This document shows positions 2,668 through 45,178 of a DNA stretch of 52,269 nt, piece after piece (position 1 is the first letter of the stretch; every line of letters begins with the position of its first letter). The position numbers and the translations under genes were made by a program. This DNA comes from Elusimicrobiaceae bacterium (GTDB lineage Bacteria > Elusimicrobiota > Elusimicrobia > Elusimicrobiales > Elusimicrobiaceae): contig JAFVWP010000052.1 of the NCBI GenBank assembly GCA_017501565.1, positions 1 through 52,269 of the forward strand, in the 5' to 3' direction. The notes beneath the pieces are model-generated. The model did not search any database, was not told the DNA's origin, and saw only the letters and a program-made list of their open reading frames with translations.

Positions 2668-3427
2668 TGCTGTTTTATTAGGACTTTTACAAGCCTTGGG
2701 CGAATTTTTACCCATCTCCAGCTCAGCCCATTTGGTGCTTTTGCCTTTTTTCAGAGGCCAGGATTACCAAGGAATTTCTTTTGATGTCTTACTGCATTTT
2801 GCCACCTTGTTGGCAGTAGTTTTGTATTTTGCCAAAGATTGGTTTGCTATCATCAAAAACGGCTTGAGCAAACCCAGCACTCCACAAGGTAAAACGCTTT
2901 GGCTTTTAGTGATGGCAACATTGCCGGCGGGTTTAGCGGGAGTGCTGTGTGAAGATTATATTGAAACCATTTTCCGCCACCCCGTTATAATAGCGGTATG
3001 TTTAATGTTTTTTGCGCTAGTCTTGTGGTGCGCTGACCGCAAGGCTTCTTCTCAGGAAAAACCGCTCTCCTGGCAAAATATGCTGCTCATCGGCTGTGCG
3101 CAAGCTTTGGCCTTAATGCCGGGGGTTTCCCGCAGTGGCATCACCATCACGGCGGCCTTATTTTTAGGCTTTAGCAGAAGCCAAAGTGCCAAAATTTCAT
3201 TTTTATTATCTGCCCCTGTTATCGGCGGCGCGGCGATATTAGAGCTGAGCCAAATATCCTGGGCAGACATCAATGCACCTTTAATTTGGGGCTGTATCAG
3301 CGCTTTTTTGGGAGCTTTGGCTGTTATCGGCGGATTGATGAAATACATCAAAAAACATAGCTTTCATGTATTTGTCATTTACCGCTTATTATTGGGTAGT
3401 TTTATTTTGATTTGGTATTTTTGCTAG
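2654..3427 (+). CDS. uppP: Undecaprenyl-diphosphatase UppP (BacA)
   Basis: A 257-residue polytopic membrane protein. It carries both UppP signatures: GEFLPISSSAHL near residues 16-27 and PGVSRSG near residue 155, which form the active site on the periplasmic face. UppP dephosphorylates undecaprenyl pyrophosphate so that the lipid carrier can return to peptidoglycan and O-antigen synthesis. The length is typical. A TAGGAG site lies just before the ATG, inside the end of sixA. The stop codon almost touches the ribosome-binding site of the downstream transporter gene, so sixA, uppP and the transporter form one operon. Confidence 0.95.
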   Translation: MSIFDAVLLGLLQALGEFLPISSSAHLVLLPFFRGQDYQGISFDVLLHFATLLAVVLYFAKDWFAIIKNGLSKPSTPQGKTLWLLVMATLPAGLAGVLCEDYIETIFRHPVIIAVCLMFFALVLWCADRKASSQEKPLSWQNMLLIGCAQALALMPGVSRSGITITAALFLGFSRSQSAKISFLLSAPVIGGAAILELSQISWADINAPLIWGCISAFLGALAVIGGLMKYIKKHSFHVFVIYRLLLGSFILIWYFC

Positions 3428-44919: not shown

Positions 44920-44992
44920 GCCGAGGTAGCTCAATTGGCAGAGCAACGGTTTTGTAAACCGTAGGTTGTGGGTTCGACTCCCATCCTCGGCT
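44920..44992 (+). tRNA. tRNA-Thr (anticodon TGT)
   Basis: A full cloverleaf can be drawn by eye: acceptor arms GCCGAGG and CCTCGGC pair over 7 bp; D arm GCTC/GAGC; anticodon stem ACGGT/ACCGT with loop TTTGTAA, anticodon TGT reading ACA; T arm GTGGG-TTCGACT-CCCAT. Length is 73 nt with a T discriminator. CCA is not encoded. A six-T run follows immediately. The 3' end is part of a 28-bp direct repeat found again 175 bp downstream. Confidence 0.95.
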
Positions 44993-45003
44993 TTTTTCTT
45001 TGG
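44976..45003 (+). repeat. 28-bp direct repeat, copy 1 (tRNA-Thr 3' end)
   Basis: This copy runs from the T loop through the acceptor stem and T run to TTTGG. It is identical over 28 bases to 45151-45178. Confidence 0.9.
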
Positions 45004-45150
45004 GGAGCAAGCAAACTGCTTTGCTTGCGACAGGAGTCGAAGCCCGCAGCGATGTTTTTGTTTGAGCCGATATGGGTTTCCTTACGGCGAAAGGCAAAAA
45101 CCGCCAGGGCCGGCCTGAAGGAAATTTCCGTCAGGAAATTTACCGAAAGG
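45004..45150. other. 147-nt structured insert between the direct repeats
   Basis: No convincing gene. It has a 9-bp hairpin (GCAAGCAAA / TTTGCTTGC, 45007-45028), a GGAGTCGAA stretch (45033-45041) that is antisense to the tRNA T loop, and AGCCGATATGGG (45065-45076), a near-inverted copy of the tRNA 3' acceptor and T-arm bases. A nested AAATTTCC / GGAAATTT hairpin with CCTGA / TCAGG outside lies near 45112-45140. The layout suggests a small element or a tRNA-derived palindrome rather than a protein gene. Confidence 0.5.
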
Positions 45151-45178
45151 GACTCCCATCCTCGGCTTTTTTCTTTGG
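45151..45178 (+). repeat. 28-bp direct repeat, copy 2
   Basis: Exact copy of the tRNA-Thr 3' end plus its T-rich tail, beginning with GACTCCCATCC. With the inverted AGCCGATATGGG stretch upstream it can also form a terminator-like stem before TTTTTT. Confidence 0.9.

Follow-up and report, generated by a model that had tools for sequence, protein, structure and literature searches.

The 147-nt sequence lying between two copies of a tRNA 3' end in the 52,269-nucleotide stretch of Elusimicrobiaceae DNA analysed here (the window) is a member of a conserved, structured and dispersed repeat family. Its members stand behind tRNA genes of many kinds, have been acquired or lost at orthologous positions, occur in tandem and are distributed patchily across the phylum. 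Each copy typically carries sequence fitted to the tRNA gene that it follows. With about even confidence, we read the locus as tRNA-X1-Y-X2, i.e. a tRNA-anchored repeat of the E. coli rtT kind, in which one complete unit is followed by a further tRNA 3' end.

The window comes from the genome of a gut Elusimicrobiaceae MAG, and the closest named records of a gene neighbouring the locus are from Elusimicrobiaceae and Candidatus Avelusimicrobium. The tRNA-Thr(TGT) gene at 44920-44992 (+), identified with ARAGORN and Rfam (RF00005, 73.2 bits), is placed between a gene for a PmbA/TldD-like protein on one side and a gene for a TerC-family protein on the other. The sequence GACTCCCATCCTCGGCTTTTTTCTTTGG, composed of the last 17 bases of tRNA-Thr(TGT) and an 11-base tail, is present at 44976-45003 and again at 45151-45178. 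The two copies are identical at 28 of 28 positions and are separated by 175 bp start to start, with 147 nt between them; by simple arithmetic, a repeat of 28 bases is expected by chance about 1e-8 times in 52 kb. This exact duplication had been reported with correct coordinates in the first-pass annotation, which also described the intervening space as free of an integrase gene, as is indeed the case. Beyond what was described there, the insert carries an inverted copy of the T arm and two near-perfect hairpins, and belongs to a dispersed family. The following features were distinguished:

44920..44992 (+): tRNA-Thr(TGT), the anchor gene (ARAGORN, Rfam RF00005)
44976..45003 (+): X1, left arm of the 28-bp direct repeat, made up of the tRNA 3' part from the T loop onward and its T-rich tail
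45004..45150 (+): Y, the insert of 147 nt, which belongs to a dispersed family of structured repeats (matches by blastn and covariance model in the same genome and in related ones)
45007..45028 (+): P1 hairpin, a perfect 9-bp stem with the loop CTGC; the stem differs between copies, both sides covarying
45033..45041 (+): GGAGTCGAA, the inverted complement of the T arm of the host tRNA (TTCGACTCC)
45042..45110 (+): P2, the conserved core hairpin, with GTTTTTG/CAAAAAC, the internal loop TTTGAG/CGAAAGG and a variable apical hairpin
45120..45144 (+): P3, a hairpin whose GTCA loop is invariant; the right end of the element comes next
45151..45178 (+): X2, right arm of the direct repeat, again made up of the tRNA 3' part and tail

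In the window copy the T-arm complement GGAGTCGAA is exact, and no acceptor complement is recognisable upstream of P1, where many other copies have one. The P1 loop (AAACTGCT) resembles a AAACTGCTATAAT stretch preceding terC in relatives with an empty site; this resemblance was judged to be due to chance.

A blastn search with the 147-nt insert identified matches at further places in the window's own genome. The stronger of these are situated behind other tRNA genes, namely Ser(TGA), Arg(CCG), Gln(CTG), Val(CAC), Ser(CGA) and Gln(TTG), and each is followed by a copy of the 3' end of that other tRNA. A first covariance model, built from 14 copies, gave 9 matches at E<=1 in the window's genome (weakest E 0.999) and between 1 and 26 matches in every one of the 28 same-genus genomes searched. 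This dispersal rules out an isolated att remnant, one of the possibilities raised initially. With a second model (R2), built from 127 matches, the family was detected in 58 of 149 genomes drawn across Elusimicrobiota, in a patchy distribution: 30 of 31 genomes of the genus, 9 of 13 from other genera of the family, 11 of 14 from a second family within the order, and 8 of 91 from outside the order. Within genus g12, for example, G073 has 20 matches, and G063 and G067 have none. In one of the genomes outside the order the core is 92% identical to a copy from the genus over 92 ungapped positions, a degree of sequence likeness that suggests either that the element moved horizontally or that it is very strongly constrained. 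Rfam contains no family for it (scan of the window and of the element loci), and phages gave no match. Among plasmids there was a single 49-base match (Aeromonas, E 3e-3), and one contig listed as viral, IMG/VR IMGVR_UViG_3300033463_005745, contains tandem units (2849-3314); ARAGORN detected no tRNA in the part of the contig retrieved around them. The open-licence literature yielded no account of such elements in Elusimicrobia, nor of tRNA-tailored repeats as a class.

To describe the relation of the copies to tRNA genes, 104 copies were examined, which remained from the 127 model matches once 9 matches that duplicated a place already present under a different locus identifier and 14 low-scoring fragments (21-45 bits) had been set aside; the choice was made by hand, and one 37.5-bit copy was kept. 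A tRNA gene on the same strand lies just upstream of 86 of the 104, mostly at a distance of 30-50 nt and with a terminator-like hairpin in between. For the other 18 an intact tRNA was not found; some of these follow tRNA 3' fragments or contig ends, and others are unexplained. At three loci (L181, L201 and L225) the copies stand behind 3' fragments of tRNA-Val and tRNA-Ser genes, such as are left by integration into a tRNA; a reverse-transcriptase frame is present about 3 kb upstream of the L225 copies, in genome G007. At another locus (L202) the element follows a tRNA-Val gene that is missing its T arm.

Tailoring was assessed in 78 copies, identical ones being counted once; all of them lie no more than 100 nt from a tRNA, with a T loop that could be recognised and a hairpin on the left. 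The set covers 25 tRNA isoacceptors and includes one copy from outside the genus (G049); the hairpin finder misframed a few rows (e.g. L003, L141 and L197). To the left of the core, the copies contain an inverted complement of their own tRNA, the acceptor-strand part preceding P1 and the T-arm part following it. The T-arm complement agrees with the copy's own tRNA at 8.26 of 10 letters, compared to 6.26 +- 0.11 when the tRNAs are permuted, and the acceptor complement at 4.67 of 7, compared to 3.65 +- 0.10; neither value was reached in any of 1000 permutations. On the right side, at least 10 exact nucleotides of the 3' end of the copy's own tRNA are found behind 56 of the 78 copies, the mean in 20 permutations being 3.8 and the maximum 9, while in 15 copies X2 showed no match of 8 nt or more. 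The copies thus contain the T arm of their own tRNA in both orientations, direct in X2 and inverted to the left of the core, so that a folded strand would have a base stem of tRNA-end sequence and three further hairpins. In 32 of the 78 copies the direct repeat begins within the T loop, at C56 or R57; in 31 it begins later, and in 15 it is absent or short. At several loci it reaches beyond the terminator into the left hairpin, which is what a repeating unit X-Y, with a partial unit closing the array, would produce.

The pairing of the stems was analysed in 118 distinct rows. In total, 93.9% of cells are paired, a figure that leans towards structure because the alignment was fitted to the model, and 802 two-sided changes were counted; after sliding the partners by 1 to 3 columns, 29.7-51.7% are paired. 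G-U pairs account for 24 of 3514 pairs in the element stems (0.7%, two invariant T.G pairs left out), and for 11 of 371 (3.0%) in the acceptor stems and 11 of 263 (4.2%) in the T stems of the host tRNAs. This scarcity suggests that the stems are constrained or corrected as DNA, or renewed by inverted copying, and is less readily explained by ordinary RNA evolution.

Among 27 distinct related tRNA-Thr(TGT) loci compared by eye (in a few, terC does not follow inside the stretch searched), 8 contain a complete element, 3 a partial one and 1 a different insert, and 15 are empty. Filled and empty sites, for which the first-pass annotation had proposed a search, therefore both exist, so the insert is not a constant companion of this tRNA, as it would be in the case of an old duplication present in all relatives. 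The different insert (L026, genome G032) is bordered on either side by a direct repeat of about 22 bp, and part of it resembles the left part of two further loci, L033 and L044. In the latter, the right half comes from the family and the left half is another sequence (CCTCGGGCTCCGCCC...), and halves may therefore be exchanged.

Tandem arrays at one tRNA were also found, composed either of identical or near-identical units (L290, with two identical 213-bp units, and L285-L289) or of differing units (L169, L204 and L190). Tandem duplication, one of the origins first considered for the locus, is thus borne out for the number of units and fails for the insert itself, which is common to many tRNA loci. 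Some copies have been split by an element bounded by terminal inverted repeats. In genome G011, insertions of about 300 bp with terminal inverted repeats (GGGTTGGCAAGGTG...) are present in two copies (L205, about 1590-1960, and L206, about 1250-1520); each is probably a MITE. The comparison of occupancy was made among the matches listed, 13 of 17 for G015 and 18 of 26 for G011.

A tree of the cores was built from 73 of the 78 copies of the tailoring set; it is poorly resolved, with 34 of 70 inner branches open. The tree tracks tRNA identity, requiring 50 changes compared to 57.8 when shuffled (0 of 200 shuffles), and does not track the genome of origin (54 changes versus 54.2). Clustering of copies by genome is therefore not supported; the cores cluster by tRNA. 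This grouping indicates that the core is often inherited or transferred at the same tRNA and that jumps between tRNAs may be rare, although changes of tRNA have also occurred in the history of the family.

Two processes would account for these observations. The number of units at one tRNA probably changes by recombination between X copies: slippage or unequal recombination between them would alter the number of X-Y units, and the hairpins could assist deletion. For the spread to other tRNA genes, we give about an even chance to a weaker proposal, in which the core reaches a new tRNA by homology through the shared T arm and both its ends are corrected from the new host. Entry would take place via the T-arm sequence common to all tRNAs (GGTTCRANNCC, nearly palindromic), with transfer by template switching or gene conversion between tRNA loci, and the flanking X and the inverted copy would then be copied or corrected from the new host tRNA. 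Such copying or correction would leave stems that are almost purely Watson-Crick. A dedicated enzyme acting in trans may still play a part.

Of the other explanations, the one that survives best, as a tentative possibility, is that the element is a functional small RNA. It would be produced by read-through from the tRNA promoter and processed, and its tRNA-like base, formed by X2 and the inverted copy, would be selected for control of the tRNA or of translation. A role of this kind would be compatible with the mechanisms proposed above. The strong conserved structure, with its compensating changes and conserved loops and internal loops, is in keeping with this, and the annotation of E. coli RtT describes an sRNA that is processed out of the tyrT transcript. 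In Thioalkalivibrio nitratis, RtT is reported to be upregulated at 10 deg C (PMC8092127), whereas the RttR row in one table of another report is without a marked effect (PMC4606813). A functional RNA is harder to reconcile with related genomes that differ in copy number from 0-1 up to 26, with sites that are empty or whose copy is truncated or broken by an insertion, with the position of many copies behind a terminator-like hairpin, and with the near absence of G-U pairs.

The first-pass annotation had interpreted the duplicated tRNA end as the mark of a very small element, integrated at the T loop by a tyrosine recombinase and dependent on mobilisation in trans. A T-loop junction, typical of tRNA-directed integration, the duplication of the tRNA 3' end, the filled and empty sites and the tandem arrays all agree with this, and presence or absence at the same locus in relatives is borne out; it is the attribution to a tyrosine recombinase that we consider unlikely. 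Genes of this class (Phage_integrase) were detected in all 37 genomes searched, but the window's genome, a draft that is 91.8% complete, has only two, with frames of 312 and 305 aa, the size of housekeeping XerC/XerD, which they may represent. Genomes G004 and G009 likewise have just two each, despite the 9, 10 and 7 matches found in these three genomes, respectively. Moreover, copies occur at 25 isoacceptors and each fits its own tRNA at both ends, a pattern that a single integrase recognising a single att core does not explain, and the inverted T-arm copy would be without a role.

It is quite improbable that a reverse transcriptase, or an enzyme acting on folded DNA (a Y1/HUH transposase or an integron-like recombinase), moves the family as a single-strand hairpin element. 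Recognition of folded DNA is indeed suggested by stems with hardly any pairs other than Watson-Crick and by internal loops that are strand-specific. However, among 25 genomes of the genus searched, the Y1 transposase (Y1_Tnp) was found in 3 and the reverse transcriptase (RVT_1) in 2, and neither was detected in the window's genome (9 matches), G011 (26 matches) or G015 (17 matches), drafts that may miss genes. A dedicated integrase, reverse transcriptase or Y1 transposase acting in trans is weakened as the cause of the family. A single local event, duplicating the tRNA 3' end in tandem around unrelated DNA, might be read from the direct repeat itself; it is refuted by the dispersed family, the insert being common to many tRNA loci and genomes, and is scarcely credible.

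The reading of the locus as a tRNA-anchored repeat places the RtT architecture in a second phylum and at 25 isoacceptors, with a measurable rule, namely that the copies match their own tRNA on both strands. It makes testable how a non-coding repeat moves between tRNA genes and is re-tailored there, and it implies that a duplicated tRNA 3' end alone is not evidence of an integrase. A broader generalization, which we advance with considerable reserve, is that such repeats colonise tRNA genes generally and rewrite their own ends for each host. They would spread in a target-templated manner by way of the T arm common to all tRNAs, without a dedicated transposase, and this kind of repeat would be shared by Elusimicrobiota and E. 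coli RtT.

Several known systems resemble the family in part. Integrative elements and prophages that use tRNA genes via a tyrosine recombinase share with the locus the T-loop junction, the duplicated tRNA 3' end and the existence of empty sites; unlike these, the family is integrase-free, has an insert of 147 nt at the locus described, is tailored to many tRNAs and contains an inverted T-arm copy. REP/BIME sequences, IS200/IS605-derived elements and other MITEs are also small, non-autonomous structured repeats. In contrast to them, the family is anchored and tailored to tRNA genes, and most of its carriers are without a Y1 transposase. Retroelements of Dictyostelium and yeast likewise target the neighbourhood of tRNA genes, but they are eukaryotic retrotransposons, and no tRNA-end copy is described for them in the accessible portion of the source (PMC5006619).

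The resemblance to RtT extends further. The variability of the rtT RNA is noted in a Salmonella comparison, where it is given as a 175-bp variable tandem repeat (PMC2658671). The RtT/rttR unit (RF00391) shares with the family its position behind a tRNA, the 3' end of which is copied at the far side of the unit, and its units are likewise arranged in tandem and variable in number. RtT has been a curiosity of a single E. coli tRNA operon, tyrT, with 178-bp repeats that end in the tRNA 3' end. The K-12 tyrT sequence confirmed that the repeats end in this way, and each unit opens with an inverted complement of the tRNA end. This complement, GGGGAAGGATGAGAA, shows the same deviation from TTCGAA to TGAGAA as some Elusimicrobia copies, and the Rfam consensus has the hairpin loop gucA, like the P3 loop of the Elusimicrobia element. 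RtT differs in that it is without a P1 hairpin between the acceptor and T-arm complements, and in its core and the order of its hairpins. The RF00391 model gave no hit in the window's genome at E<=10 and no RtT match among those listed in 10 element loci (E<=10), while four RtT hits were obtained at the E. coli locus used as a positive control. Conversely, the R2 model reached 6.8 bits (E 0.97) on the E. coli locus, which indicates no homology. As neither covariance model recognises the other group, we claim the same kind of repeat and not shared descent.

In E. coli, the RtT core was found in 4695 of 5426 genomes, at 1-14 places in each. An RtT-like unit is also present at tRNA-Pro, with both X2 and the T-arm complement matching tRNA-Pro; when used as a query, at least 80% of this unit was covered in 2678 of the 5375 E. 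coli genomes with any match. At the proK loci compared (L306 and L308-L312), one full unit is present in some strains, and only a partial unit in K-12 C3026 and SE15. K-12 proK, considered at one point as an empty site, therefore holds a partial unit, and the difference among E. coli strains at this place is one of unit number and not a clean insertion. The spacer between two tRNA-Tyr genes contains an RtT unit in K-12 (L258) and none in the copy on plasmid p23AR0151A (L307). In the K-12 lysT operon (L314, 780400-782400), each of the five tRNA-Lys genes has behind it a unit that ends in the tRNA-Lys end; that of lysQ includes an inverted T-arm copy, while the units after lysT, lysW, lysY and lysZ are short, with a GTCA loop in that of lysW. 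The RtT-like units at tRNA-Pro and after lysQ are thus tailored to the local tRNA. E. coli RtT is the closest known system, and its architecture is common to both groups.
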